Part shown: positions 171 to 5,130 of the stretch, piece after piece
How the letters are laid out: each line of letters begins with the position of its first letter
Position numbering within the stretch: the first letter of the stretch is position 1
Assembly: GCA_020433785.1 (NCBI GenBank)
Contig: JAGRCC010000881.1
Coordinates: forward strand, 1 to 5,130
DNA: 5,130 nucleotides
DNA from: Anaerolineae bacterium
Lineage (GTDB): Bacteria > Chloroflexota > Anaerolineae > 4572-78 > J111
Direction of reading: 5' to 3'
Program-made: the position numbers and the translations under genes
Notes under the pieces: generated by a model
Seen by the model: only the letters and a program-made list of their open reading frames with translations
Told to the model about the DNA's origin: nothing
Database searches by the model: none

Positions 171-189
171 AATGTCACGATGTGACATT
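171..189. promoter_or_regulatory. palindromic operator-like site upstream of the 275-3640 gene
   Basis: AATGTCAC-GAT-GTGACATT is a perfect inverted repeat with 8-base arms and a 3-base centre. It ends 8 bases before the proposed -35 element at 198. Size and placement fit a dimeric helix-turn-helix regulator acting next to RNA polymerase. The half-site TGTCAC/GTGACA recalls CRP/FNR-superfamily half sites (TGTGA/TCACA), but spacing and order differ, so the regulator is not identified. The palindrome is seen directly; its role as an operator is inferred. Confidence 0.5.
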
Positions 190-197
190 TATGACAA

Positions 198-226
198 TTG
201 GAATTGGGTCTGTCTCGTGCTATACT
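198..226 (+). promoter_or_regulatory. extended -10 sigma70-type promoter for the 275-3640 gene
   Basis: The elements are TTGGAA at 198-203, a 17-base spacer, and TATACT at 221-226 preceded by TGC (218-220), forming an extended -10. A start of transcription near 232-234 would give a leader of about 40 nt ending in the Shine-Dalgarno at 264-268. Spacing is ideal for a housekeeping sigma factor, and the 171-189 palindrome lies immediately upstream. Confidence 0.65.
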
Positions 227-263
227 GGCAATAACTTAGTTCATCACAGCGTCGGTACATCTT

Positions 264-268
264 AGGAG
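264..268 (+). promoter_or_regulatory. ribosome binding site of the 275-3640 gene
   Basis: AGGAG at 264-268 lies six bases before the ATG at 275, which is normal Shine-Dalgarno geometry. It is the main reason for choosing this start. Confidence 0.7.
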
Positions 269-274
269 AGAAGG

Positions 275-3200
275 ATGGATGCCCCAGGAGCTAATAATCC
301 GGTTCAGGCCAATTTACCCCGGGTCGCGGTACGTCATGCCCCCGGACTGACCCTGTCAACCGCAGAAATCGAATTATTGGCCCTGGCTTTTGCCAACAGC
401 CCTCAAATCTTTATCGAACGCGAGTTTCGCTCCGGTTACAGCGGCGCAGTGGTATTATTAGCCTCTCCTGCCCCTGGTCAGGCTCAGGTTGTGATTAAAC
501 TTGGCCCACCGGCCGATTTGCAGCGCGAGTACGACGCTTACCACAAGTTTGTAAAGAAAACCGCCCCGCAAAATACCGCCCGGTTGCAAAATGAACCGGT
601 CCAAACCAATGATGGCCAATTAGCCTTGTTGTGTTACACCTTCGCCGGGGGCGATCCTCGCTTGCCGACCCGCAGTTTGCAAGCTTTCTATGATAGCCGG
701 GGAGGCCAGGCCACAGCCGAAGTGCTCGATCGTGTATTTCGCGTTTACGGCCGGCACTGGTGGGCCATCAACCAACCTCAGAAGTTTGTGCTGAGCGAAT
801 ACTATGATCGTTTGCTGCCGGTTCAACTTAAACTCAAGCCAACCGAGCCAGGAGTCCTTACGACCCACACGTTAGTTGCCGGTCAGACCAGCGCCGCAGC
901 TTTGCGTGGTCTGGAAGTGGGCTGCTTTCTCCAATTGCACAATTTCCGCATCGACGAAATTCGCCACGACGGACGCGAACTGACCCTGACCGCTCAGCCA
1001 CCTCCGGGCGAAGCATCTGCGCCACTTCGTCTGCGTTTGGAACTAGATTCTCATGTCGCCAATCAACCTGGCGATACATTGGCTATGGTCGAGGCTACTG
1101 TCACCGCTTCACGTCGAACGCTGCTGGCCGACCTGGCCCGTTCAACCCTCTCCACCTTCGATCCGGACGCCCCGAACTTTACCGTGGCCGGTCGTACCTT
1201 ACCTAATCCCCTCCTCAATCTGGCTGACCTGCTCGATCGCGTAGTTGAGGCCAGGTTTTCTACCATTCACGGCGACCTCAACCTGCAAAATATCCTGGTC
1301 GATGAGGCGACCGGTTTTGCCTGGCTCATCGATTTTGCCGAAACTCGGCGCGGCCCCACCTTGTTCGATGTGCAGCGGCTGGAGGTACAAGTCATTATCG
1401 AGTTACTGCCGCCGGCCATAACCCAAGCTGGGTTAGAGTCAATCACCGTCGCTTTCTTATTGGAGTCGCTTCACACCGATTCTCCTCCGGTGACCACTCC
1501 CTACTCTGTGTTGCAAGAGTCCTATACCGTTTTACTGGCGCTCCGCCGTTTGGCTCGGCAGTATCTAATGGACGATCGAGATTGGGATGAATATTACCTG
1601 GGGTTAGTTGTGACCTTGGTCGGCAGTTTGAAATACACTCATTTAACGATCTCAGCCCGACGCTTGGCTCTGATTGGGGCCGCGACGATACTAGGGTTGG
1701 TGGGCAAGCCTATGACTACCGGGCCATCAGTTCTGCAATCGGCACACCGGCCTGCACTTCCAAATCGAACCCGGCCCGGTCGCGTCAGCCAGCCTACGAC
1801 CGAGTCGGGTGACACATCATCATCCCCTTGGCTGCGTTGGCTGGCCCTGTTTGGCGGTGGTTGGTTCAAGCCCAAAGCCAAAACTCCGTTGGCTTTGGTG
1901 ATCAATGTTCAAGGTCGCGTCGAAATCCGGCGTAAAGATGACGACCGGATATTTCCGGCCGCCTTTGGCATGCCGCTTTTTTTTGAGGATGCTGTGATCA
2001 CCTACGACGCCTCAACCACGGATATTGTTTGCAATAATGGGTATCTCTACCATTTGGATTGGCAAAGCTCCTTGGTTGTCCGCTGCGGCGAGGCTGATGA
2101 TCGCCCCCCCATCGGCCAACTCCCCCACGATTTGTCTCAACGTATTACTCGTCCTAATGTTTCGTTAGATACCCTGTCCCCATTAGAGTTAATGGTAGCA
2201 GAACAGACGATCCGTAATTTATCTCTGGACATTTCGGCTCAAAACTTTTTGCTCGTCCGGCTCTATCAAAGCACCGCTCTGGCAGAAGATGCTATTGCCA
2301 GGTTAGAAGATTTGACTACATTTGGCTACGGGCCAGGGTTAGCCCAAGAATTAGGCGAGGCCTATATTAAGCTCGGTAATTTGGATCAGGCGCAAAGCTA
2401 CCTCCAGCTAGCCTTGAACCAGGCTCATATTTCAGGCGATCTACTGACTCAAGCCGAAGCCTGTGACGGTTTGGGGGCCGTGGCTCGGGCGAAAGGAGAT
2501 CGGACTACCGCCGAGGTTCATTGGCGAACTGCCTCTGATTTGTATCGACAATCGGGATATTTGGCGAAGGCTGATAGTGTGACCGAATTGTTGACATCAG
2601 TAATAACTGAAACTAATTTTGATGATGCTAACCAGATGGGTCGATGGAGGCAGTGGTTCAGAAGAATATCGATGCCTGAGTCAGGTATACCCCCTGCCGG
2701 CGAAACAAAGCTACAAAAAAACAGACCATTTTTCGGACACCTTATAAACATCCTGGATTTGACGGGTGGTGTGTTTGCTTTGTTGCTATTGATTCTCATT
2801 CCACTCATCTTATTAGTTGTTCTATCCAGTAGAAATATATTAAACGGGTTTAGCTTGTCTGGACCCACTGCGACAACACTACCAATCGTCTTGGTGATTA
2901 ATACTCCTACTACAATATCAACTTCTACAGCCACACCGTTACCGCCGGCTGACACCCCGATCCCTATTCCGACCGATACCCCATCTCAAACTAACCCCCC
3001 GACTGCTACTGACACCTCCACCGCCACGCCTTCTGCTACTCCCACCAGTACACTCACCCCCACGCTAACCCCGACCCCGATTCCCGAAGGTTTGATCGGC
3101 AAAATTCTGTTCAAAACTGATCGCAGCGGGCGGACCGAACTGTATCAAATGGATAGCGATGGACGTAACCAGGCGCCGTTAGATCGCAGCCAGTGGGATC

Positions 3201-3640
3201 TATATACCCGGCTTGAGCAAGCCCTGCCGATTTCATCCGACGGCCAAAATAGAATCGTCGTTCGTGGCGAAGGCCAGCTCGATTTGTGGTGGGTTCGGCC
3301 GGATAGCCGCGAACTGCGGGTAACCAGCACCGGTCAGCCGGAATATGACGCTGCTTGGTCGCCGGTCGATAATCGTATTGCCTATGTTTCAGAAGAAACC
3401 GGCAATGGCGACATTTACGTTCTCAACTTGGATGGCAGTTCCAAAATTCGTTTAACGGAAAACCCCAGTGATTTTGACAAGCACCCCACCTGGTCACCCG
3501 ATGGTAGCCGCATCGCCTTCTGGTCCGATATGGGTTTTGCCAACAATCGGCAAATTTTTGTGGTTGATTTGGCTACCCGAGAGATCACTAATCTTTCTGA
3601 CAATCCCTTCAACGATTGGGATCCGATCTGGGTTCATTGA
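275..3640 (+). CDS. membrane-anchored APH-like kinase with FecR-like, TPR-like and extracytoplasmic PD40 domains
   Basis: This 1121-residue protein is probably a transmembrane sensor kinase or phosphotransferase. Residues about 45-470 form an APH/choline-kinase-type fold: a Gly-containing loop SGYSGA (53-58), VVIK with candidate ATP-binding K75, a candidate helix-C Glu at E85, the catalytic loop HGDLNLQN (D334, N339), and a metal-binding IDF (D353). A beta-rich stretch at about 195-285 interrupts the kinase before the catalytic loop. Next come a Pro/Thr-rich linker (about 478-515), a FecR-like beta module (about 537-605), TPR-like helices (about 635-775), one hydrophobic helix (about 831-850) preceded by basic residues (inside), a Thr/Pro linker (about 863-937), and PD40/TolB-like repeats to the end (WSP at 1028-1030, WSPDG at 1073-1077). 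The kinase half should therefore be cytoplasmic and the propeller outside. The kinase may belong to the family Pfam calls TCAD9, which is uncertain. Substrate is unknown. It has its own promoter and a good Shine-Dalgarno. Composition turns AT-rich around the membrane segment. Confidence 0.85.
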   Translation: MDAPGANNPVQANLPRVAVRHAPGLTLSTAEIELLALAFANSPQIFIEREFRSGYSGAVVLLASPAPGQAQVVIKLGPPADLQREYDAYHKFVKKTAPQNTARLQNEPVQTNDGQLALLCYTFAGGDPRLPTRSLQAFYDSRGGQATAEVLDRVFRVYGRHWWAINQPQKFVLSEYYDRLLPVQLKLKPTEPGVLTTHTLVAGQTSAAALRGLEVGCFLQLHNFRIDEIRHDGRELTLTAQPPPGEASAPLRLRLELDSHVANQPGDTLAMVEATVTASRRTLLADLARSTLSTFDPDAPNFTVAGRTLPNPLLNLADLLDRVVEARFSTIHGDLNLQNILVDEATGFAWLIDFAETRRGPTLFDVQRLEVQVIIELLPPAITQAGLESITVAFLLESLHTDSPPVTTPYSVLQESYTVLLALRRLARQYLMDDRDWDEYYLGLVVTLVGSLKYTHLTISARRLALIGAATILGLVGKPMTTGPSVLQSAHRPALPNRTRPGRVSQPTTESGDTSSSPWLRWLALFGGGWFKPKAKTPLALVINVQGRVEIRRKDDDRIFPAAFGMPLFFEDAVITYDASTTDIVCNNGYLYHLDWQSSLVVRCGEADDRPPIGQLPHDLSQRITRPNVSLDTLSPLELMVAEQTIRNLSLDISAQNFLLVRLYQSTALAEDAIARLEDLTTFGYGPGLAQELGEAYIKLGNLDQAQSYLQLALNQAHISGDLLTQAEACDGLGAVARAKGDRTTAEVHWRTASDLYRQSGYLAKADSVTELLTSVITETNFDDANQMGRWRQWFRRISMPESGIPPAGETKLQKNRPFFGHLINILDLTGGVFALLLLILIPLILLVVLSSRNILNGFSLSGPTATTLPIVLVINTPTTISTSTATPLPPADTPIPIPTDTPSQTNPPTATDTSTATPSATPTSTLTPTLTPTPIPEGLIGKILFKTDRSGRTELYQMDSDGRNQAPLDRSQWDLYTRLEQALPISSDGQNRIVVRGEGQLDLWWVRPDSRELRVTSTGQPEYDAAWSPVDNRIAYVSEETGNGDIYVLNLDGSSKIRLTENPSDFDKHPTWSPDGSRIAFWSDMGFANNRQIFVVDLATREITNLSDNPFNDWDPIWVH

Positions 3641-4174: not shown

Positions 4175-4243
4175 AGCCACGAATGACACGAATTTTCACT
4201 AATTTTTTCTTGTTTTTCGTGTCAATTCGTGTCATTCGTGGTT
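4175..4243. repeat. long intergenic hairpin element with nested CACGAA repeats
   Basis: The 18-base arm CCACGAATGACACGAATT at 4177-4194 is the exact reverse complement of 4224-4241. Pairing resumes inside after a 2x2 internal loop (CAC at 4197-4199 with GTG at 4219-4221, AA at 4201-4202 with TT at 4216-4217), leaving a T-rich apical loop of about 13 bases. Each arm is built from short near-tandem units: CACGAA at 4178 and 4187 and CACTAA at 4197 on the left, and TTCGTG at 4216, 4226 and 4235 on the right. It lies in the divergent region, 37 bases upstream of the TM2-like start. I recall similar CACGAAT palindromes as dispersed intergenic repeats in environmental bacteria, but that needs a search. 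No flanking target duplication is evident. Confidence 0.8.
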
Positions 4244-4441: not shown

Positions 4442-4485
4442 CCGTTCCATTAGCCCTGCTATGGGTGATTCTTGAGCCAAAACGA

Positions 4486-4515
4486 CTGGAAAGTGGCCCA
4501 TTCCTATGATATACT
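4486..4515 (+). promoter_or_regulatory. extended -10 promoter for the Ser/Thr kinase gene
   Basis: TATACT at 4510-4515 is preceded by TGA (4507-4509), forming an extended -10. CTGGAA at 4486-4491, with an 18-base spacer, is a weak -35. The layout parallels the promoter at 198-226 (TTGGAA, TGC-TATACT). Transcription would begin near 4521-4523, giving a leader of about 45 nt. Confidence 0.55.
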
Positions 4516-4554
4516 AAGGAGTATGATGCCTGTTTGATGGTGCTACGGAGAGCG

Positions 4555-4560
4555 AGGGGG
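4555..4560 (+). promoter_or_regulatory. ribosome binding site of the Ser/Thr kinase gene
   Basis: AGGGGG at 4555-4560 sits five bases before the ATG at 4566. No other ATG, GTG or TTG codon lies in this frame between the upstream in-frame stop (TAA at 4515-4517) and 4566, which fixes the start. Confidence 0.6.
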
Positions 4561-4565
4561 AAACG

Positions 4566-5130
4566 ATGGATCCGACGCACATCGGCCGCTACGAGATTCA
4601 CGCTCCGTTGGGGCGCGGTGGTATGGGGACTGTTTATAAAGGCCGCGATCCGCTCATGGAACGTTGGGTGGCGGTCAAGACCATAACCGTGCAAGATGCG
4701 GTTCAACGGGCCCGCTTTCAGCAAGAAGTCCGCGCGGCCGGCTCGCTCAACCACCCTCACATCACCACTATCTACGATGTCGGTGAAGACGGCGACCTGG
4801 CTTACATTGTCATGGAACTGGTCGAAGGGGATACCCTGGCCGCTCGGCTGGCCGCGCCCGTACCCTGGCCCGAAGCGATTAGCCTGATCGCGCCGATTGC
4901 CGACGCCCTGGCTTATGCCCACGACCGGGGCGTGATTCATCGCGATGTCAAGCCGGCCAACATTCTGGTCTCCACCGAAGGCAAAGTTAAGCTGACCGAT
5001 TTTGGCGTAGCTCGCCTGGAAGCCGCCCTGCGCCGGATTACCGAGTCGGGCAGCACCGTCGGCACACCGCTGTATACCGCCCCCGAACAGATCGAAAATA
5101 AAGCCGTCGATGGCCGGGCCGATCTCTTTT
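4566..5130 (+). CDS. Hanks-type serine/threonine protein kinase, N-terminal part (runs off the right edge)
   Basis: The 188 residues seen cover most of a eukaryotic-like Ser/Thr kinase domain, which transfers ATP phosphate to Ser/Thr of proteins from the cytoplasmic side. The motifs are complete so far: Gly loop GRGGMG (16-21), VAVK with K38, a probable helix-C Glu at E54 followed by LNHPHI (61-66), catalytic loop HRDVKPAN (D127, K129, N132), DFG (145-147), an activation segment containing T159, S161, S163 and T164 as candidate autophosphorylation sites, GTPLYTAPE (166-174), and a likely helix-F Asp at D186. The kinase is therefore predicted to be active. There is no signal or membrane segment before the domain. 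Relatives in Chloroflexota and Actinomycetota usually carry a transmembrane helix and an extracytoplasmic sensor C-terminally, which lies beyond this window if present. The gene diverges from the TM2-like gene and has its own promoter and a Pho-box-like repeat upstream. Confidence 0.95.
   Translation, partial: MDPTHIGRYEIHAPLGRGGMGTVYKGRDPLMERWVAVKTITVQDAVQRARFQQEVRAAGSLNHPHITTIYDVGEDGDLAYIVMELVEGDTLAARLAAPVPWPEAISLIAPIADALAYAHDRGVIHRDVKPANILVSTEGKVKLTDFGVARLEAALRRITESGSTVGTPLYTAPEQIENKAVDGRADLF

Follow-up and report, generated by a model that had tools for sequence, protein, structure and literature searches.

The 5.1-kb window analysed here (the whole stretch of 5,130 nucleotides from contig JAGRCC010000881.1 of an Anaerolineae bacterium, assembly GCA_020433785.1) carries a sole complete long open reading frame (ORF), open from end to end. 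We read the encoded 1121-aa protein, with modest confidence and on the strength of sequence and predicted structure, as a one-component transmembrane receptor with a phosphotransferase of the APH clan as its output. A preliminary description of the same DNA had placed an APH-like kinase, a FecR-like module, TPR-like helices, a membrane helix, a Thr/Pro linker and a PD40 propeller in this chain. The ORF and most of that order stand, with two corrections: the kinase domain is the named family TCAD9, and the FecR label finds no Pfam or profile support. The features are as follows.

275 to 3640, + strand: complete ORF, 1121 aa, in the order TCAD9, strand-rich domain, TPR, membrane helix, Thr/Pro linker, TolB-like propeller
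326 to 1714, + strand: TCAD9 (PF19974) kinase domain of the APH clan, residues about 18-480, predicted to be cytoplasmic
497 to 529, + strand: N-lobe Lys75 to Glu85, putative ATP-binding pair by analogy with APH kinases
827 to 1114, + strand: strand-rich insert in TCAD9, residues about 185-280, from the secondary structure of the model
1268 to 1336, + strand: catalytic loop HGDLNLQN (332-339) and IDF (352-354), from conservation across the compared domains
1829 to 1867, + strand: short hydrophobic stretch of 13 residues (519-531), from hydropathy and comparison with relatives
1883 to 2098, + strand: strand-rich domain, residues 537-608, with seven strands in the structure model
2126 to 2668, + strand: TPR-like helices, residues 618-798, from profile match and structure model
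2768 to 2824, + strand: single membrane helix, residues 832-850, from hydropathy and structure model
2825 to 3097, + strand: Thr/Pro-rich disordered linker, residues 851-941, from sequence and structure model
2927 to 3004, within the linker: joint of a P0001-like N-terminal part and a Hanks-receptor-like C-terminal part, about residues 885-910
3098 to 3637, + strand: TolB/PD40 four-bladed propeller, residues 942-1121, from profile match and fold
4566 to 5130, + strand: neighbouring Hanks-type kinase ORF running past the window end, Pkinase (PF00069) match at E 3.9e-42

The N-terminal domain matches the Pfam family TCAD9 with E 3e-42 (145.8 bits against a curated cut-off of 40 bits), and its AlphaFold model adopts an APH/methylthioribose-kinase fold with high confidence, the predicted local distance difference test (pLDDT) score being 92. 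Homologues were taken from a set of 120 listed TCAD9 proteins, and 121 domains entered both the catalytic-residue comparison and the domain tree. Lys75 and Glu85 are found in all 121 domains, as are H332, G333, D334, N339, D353 and F354, and the insert residues R252 and R280 are nearly invariant (117/121 and 119/121). The earlier assignment of K75, E85, HGDLNLQN and IDF to the APH branch is thus borne out by profile, predicted fold and conservation. The Hanks motifs HRD and DFG are replaced by HGD and DFA, and Pkinase gave no match up to E 1 for either the whole ORF or residues 1-475. By sequence and modelled fold, the catalytic domain belongs to the APH branch and not to the Hanks kinases.

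A sequence search of solved structures returned only the RIO2 kinase (E 0.0012) and an ABC transporter binding protein, the latter probably arising via the non-TCAD9 part of alignment A1. The best identity to the window TCAD9 domain among the 120 listed proteins is 66%, and a fragment covering residues 1-207 at the related locus L001 reaches 86%. Enzymes of the APH, methylthioribose kinase and choline kinase clan are normally soluble. The window domain has its fold and catalytic residues in common with them (2pyw, 4feu, 4r7b) but differs in its strand-rich insert (185-280) and in being fused to a membrane sensor.

Between kinase and membrane lie the strand-rich domain and the TPR-like helices. 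A FecR identity of the former found no support: no Pfam match to FecR (PF04773) appeared up to E 10, and the profile comparison by hhalign, made with 3 valid FecR rows, gave a probability of 0.3%. With residues 520-870 as query, P0001 was the sole match (7995 candidates with most words in common were scored), and residues 537-762 matched in none of the 25 genomes from the order of genome G001, an empty answer that would carry weight only beside a positive control. The prediction gives one membrane helix with the enzyme inside and the sensor outside. Helix prediction and charge bias together support the original proposal that the chain is wired like a receptor kinase with a cytoplasmic enzyme.

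Origin of the propeller

With the ectodomain of the Hanks receptor kinase P0123 the propeller shares 95% identity, with that of P0124 90%, and with the next 77% or less. A search with region 925-1121 yielded 1913 matches, and many of the best 120 of these, which were examined, are other PD40 proteins at 28-40% identity. A tree was built from the propellers of 74 listed Hanks receptors (615-690 aa, with an HRD-type motif), that of locus L002 and those of four PD40-bearing TCAD9 proteins, a fifth such protein, P0004, being left out for want of a match. In this tree the window propeller is nested among the 75 Hanks-receptor propellers at branches with starred support of 99/89, 100/99 and 98/95. 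The remaining TCAD9-protein propellers are distant from it. Four Hanks receptors read at their own loci have the order kinase, membrane helix, Thr/Pro stalk, propeller.

Similarity to P0123 becomes close from about residue 885, inside the Thr/Pro stalk. P0001 parallels window residues 19-935 and ends in the stalk, without a propeller. This switch at the stalk, from P0001 before to P0123 after, suggests that the chain consists of a P0001-like TCAD9 protein and the outer half of a Hanks receptor; by sequence comparison, the propeller is captured from a Hanks-type receptor kinase. The suggestion in the preliminary description of an independently evolved signalling kinase needs correction for the sensor; the enzyme is of the APH branch, as that description had it.

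In the HKST-UBA12 genome, identity to the window is 86% for the TCAD9 fragment and 83% for the propeller of the Hanks receptor. This about equal divergence of both halves, together with the closeness to P0123 and P0124, speaks for a capture that postdates the split of the window and HKST-UBA12 lineages, a recency judged from protein identity. Of the 25 genomes from the order, 17 matched the end of the window propeller at E 1e-20 or better, with identities of 35-80%; the best propeller there is 80% identical to that of the window.

The Hanks PD40 receptors (P0123; L002 8540-10582) have the membrane helix, the Thr/Pro stalk and a practically identical propeller in common with the window protein, which differs from them in a TCAD9/APH catalytic domain in place of PF00069 and in the TPR and strand-rich modules before the membrane. 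Practically one sensor on either a Hanks kinase or an APH-clan kinase provides a matched pair for probing the acceptor of an APH-type enzyme within a receptor, and an unrelated inner enzyme under a near-identical Hanks sensor suggests a little-explored receptor wiring. At L002 (5895-8543) and L003 (2509-5148), proteins of about 880 aa, alike by eye, are encoded by genes that overlap the start of the downstream Hanks-PD40 receptor gene.

Five related loci were found in genomes labelled Anaerolineae, Anaerolineaceae or Chloroflexi. At L001, positions 681-1381 correspond to window 183-887 at 83% DNA identity and positions 1447-2108 to window 4468-5130 at 85%; the L001 TCAD9 gene breaks off shortly past residue 207, and some 3.6 kb of window sequence is absent from this locus. 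The next L001 gene encodes a 1496-aa chain identical to P0059, with a Hanks kinase, TCAD9, a membrane helix and a CBM11-bearing outer part, and the ORF at 4566-5130 is its counterpart. A further L001 gene (6046-10413) encodes a chain of 1455 aa in which two stretches match Hanks kinases and a TCAD9 domain bears HGS and INF motifs, a probable pseudokinase, by these motifs, beside intact copies.

TCAD9 layouts across the family

With membrane helices called by a plain hydropathy threshold, a helix follows TCAD9 in 49 of the 120 listed homologues and precedes it in 40, with none in 31. Lys and Arg counts around the helix are 149 before versus 48 after in one layout and 47 before versus 119 after in the other. 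This reversal would put TCAD9 on the positive, cytoplasmic side in both layouts, a location thus predicted family-wide, and as far as the sequences tell, TCAD9 as a membrane receptor is a recurring pattern. The before-layout homologues (40 of P0072-P0120) carry TCAD9 at the C terminus and have two membrane segments in 28 cases, one in 11 and three in 1; all but one (39/40) are 634-856 aa long, and the about 150-400 residues that precede TCAD9 are unassigned to any domain.

On a quick tree of the TCAD9 domains, in which 35 of 118 inner branches are weak, the before-layout requires only 2 changes, compared with 8 for fusion to a Hanks kinase and 5 for PD40. Few changes of layout against many of partner suggest that the topology looks old and that partner domains have frequently been exchanged. 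Fusions recognised by eye among the listed homologues involve Hanks kinases (12), receiver domains (8), FGE-sulfatase (7), SBP_bac_3 (5) and PD40 (at least 5). Since 12 of the 120 unite TCAD9 with a Hanks kinase in one chain, TCAD9 appears as much an addition to Hanks signalling as an alternative to it. Relatives with most of the domain order of the window protein do exist, and its exact chain is found in none of the 120.

In eight homologues (P0001, P0002, P0003, P0007, P0012, P0013, P0018 and P0019), the strand-rich domain follows TCAD9, as in the window protein, and a TPR-like part is present in seven of the eight, P0002 being without it. Three of them (P0003, P0012 and P0019) have an N-terminal Hanks kinase. 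At the position of the short hydrophobic stretch of the window protein (residues 519-531), directly after TCAD9, a membrane helix is predicted in P0003, P0007, P0012, P0013, P0018 and P0019, so that their later modules would lie outside. No helix is predicted there in P0002, P0001 or the window protein, and in the latter two it comes after the TPR-like part instead. By this reading of hydropathy, the strand-rich and TPR-like modules would have changed membrane side between relatives.

The distribution of the family is patchy. Among 301 sampled genomes of the G001 phylum, TCAD9 exceeded its cut-off in 10 and had weaker matches in 81 (at most five candidates were scored per genome); weaker matches also occurred in 6 of 14 control genomes. 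With the window TCAD9 domain as query at E 1e-10, 10 of the 25 genomes of the order were matched, and G001 has 15 TCAD9-matching stretches in 13 reading frames. The 9.8-Mb G001 genome also has 65 Hanks kinase matches at E 1e-20 or better.

Proposed mechanism and alternatives

In bacteria, most receptor kinases that span the membrane belong to the histidine or the Hanks type. We tentatively propose the following for the window protein. The TolB-like propeller would sense a ligand or the state of the envelope from outside the membrane, and the flexible Thr/Pro stalk, which joins it to the single membrane helix, would carry the signal together with that helix. The signal could then pass via the TPR and strand-rich modules to the cytoplasmic TCAD9, which would move phosphate from ATP to a cytoplasmic acceptor. 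Control of kinase activity by the propeller might be exerted by bringing chains together. The propeller might also be completed in a homodimer. Phosphotransfer by the window TCAD9 is supported by the conservation of its residues, and we infer enzymatic activity and an output in signalling. The argument for a sensing propeller comes from architecture alone, and is as strong as that for the Hanks receptors with the same propeller. A protein acceptor seems slightly more likely than a small molecule, considering that this sensor and that of a Hanks receptor are exchangeable and that fusions of TCAD9 with Hanks kinases or receiver domains are common.

A broader proposal is that bacteria possess, in the TCAD9 receptors, a second class of transmembrane protein kinases, with an APH fold, two opposite topologies and sensors in common with Hanks receptors, which phosphorylate proteins and often act in a relay with a Hanks kinase, either one in their own chain or one encoded by the adjacent gene; we regard this as possible but doubtful. 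If TCAD9 does phosphorylate proteins, entries named only 'phosphotransferase' or 'hypothetical protein' would become a signalling family.

Several observations weigh against a signalling receptor. Of the 120 listed homologues, 31 have no predicted membrane helix; among the helices counted, some are remote from TCAD9, and for part of the 40 before-layout proteins the sole helix is N-terminal and signal-like. Such distant or signal-like helices blur the charge bias without reversing it. Degenerate TCAD9 copies occur in 3 of 22 genes, one being the HGS/INF copy of the third L001 cluster gene, so that some members of the family may act non-catalytically, and the truncation of the closest L001 relative after about residue 207 suggests that the gene is dispensable there. 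The best fold matches of the TCAD9 model are mostly small-molecule kinases, and these neighbours favour a small-molecule acceptor. Active APH-type kinases have been described among vWA effectors, with low-molecular-weight substrates suggested for APH-type effectors, by Kaur et al. 2020 (PMC7159879). The protein could accordingly be a membrane-anchored kinase of a metabolite, a lipid head group or an incoming toxic compound, with no part in signalling and with a propeller and stalk that serve just to tether the enzyme or to attach to cell-wall material. We hold this to be rather unlikely, as the propeller is, by the four loci and the tree, of the Hanks receptor type, for which a signalling role is expected, and as metabolic enzymes would not be expected to share chains with receiver domains, Hanks kinases or NTPase-TPR parts, as TCAD9 does.

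A role in a conflict system, with TCAD9 as an effector or effector-associated domain of a vWA-MoxR-VMAP-like defence and the receptor sensing damage to the envelope by phage, would fit single listed homologues that carry what we take to be EAD1, TIR, Clp_N or NTPase modules. It would also fit the published association of TCAD9 with vWA-MoxR-VMAP, as given in a legend of PMC10910872. We nevertheless consider it improbable, since the scanned ORFs of the window, with its 5.1 kb of context, include none recognised as vWA, MoxR, VMAP, protease or nuclease, and since PADLOC matched the receptor ORF solely to a generic TPR entry and its neighbour to kinase domains in general. Least probable of all, in our view, is a joining of propeller and P0001-like protein within the Thr/Pro repeat that represents a recent chimera without settled function or an assembly artefact. 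The identity of the propeller to P0123 exceeds that of the TCAD9 domain to its best relatives, the joint falls in repetitive Thr/Pro codons, and the exact chain is absent from the listed homologues. However, the frame is open throughout, P0003 is an independent chain of TCAD9 and PD40, and both flanks match one related contig, so that misassembly would require joins at two places around the propeller. This synteny with L001 makes an assembly join or simple chimera less likely. Each of the three outcomes that the preliminary description had set as fatal to its reading (no predicted kinase fold, no homologues in this domain order, evidence of a chimeric artefact) has failed to appear.

The receptor remains our preferred reading. 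What is known of TCAD9 is its domain name, and that active APH-type kinases occur among vWA effectors. In print TCAD9 is associated with vWA-MoxR-VMAP, whereas in the window it forms the cytoplasmic part of a predicted membrane receptor. The main text of PMC7159879 makes no mention of TCAD, and in that of two surveys of kinase-like enzymes (PMC4702295 and PMC1821047) the word transmembrane is absent. No description of TCAD9 as a receptor kinase was found in the literature searched, whose coverage of subscription journals is thin, and we infer that TCAD9 receptors are so far undescribed there.

Other features of the window

A scan of the window for tRNA genes found none, and no Rfam family reached its gathering score. 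On the - strand, a small ORF (4137-3754, 127 aa) has several hydrophobic segments by eye and a stretch resembling TM2-type proteins; it has no Pfam match over the cut-off and no NCBIfam match. Between this ORF and the Hanks kinase gene lies an inverted repeat (4177-4241; 26 nucleotides, 88% complementary, with a 13-nucleotide loop), the 18-nucleotide core of which occurs in 0 of 71 fetched loci. Upstream of the receptor ORF, at 3-57, the 16-nucleotide unit GAAGGATGAATTATGA is present three times in degenerate copies.
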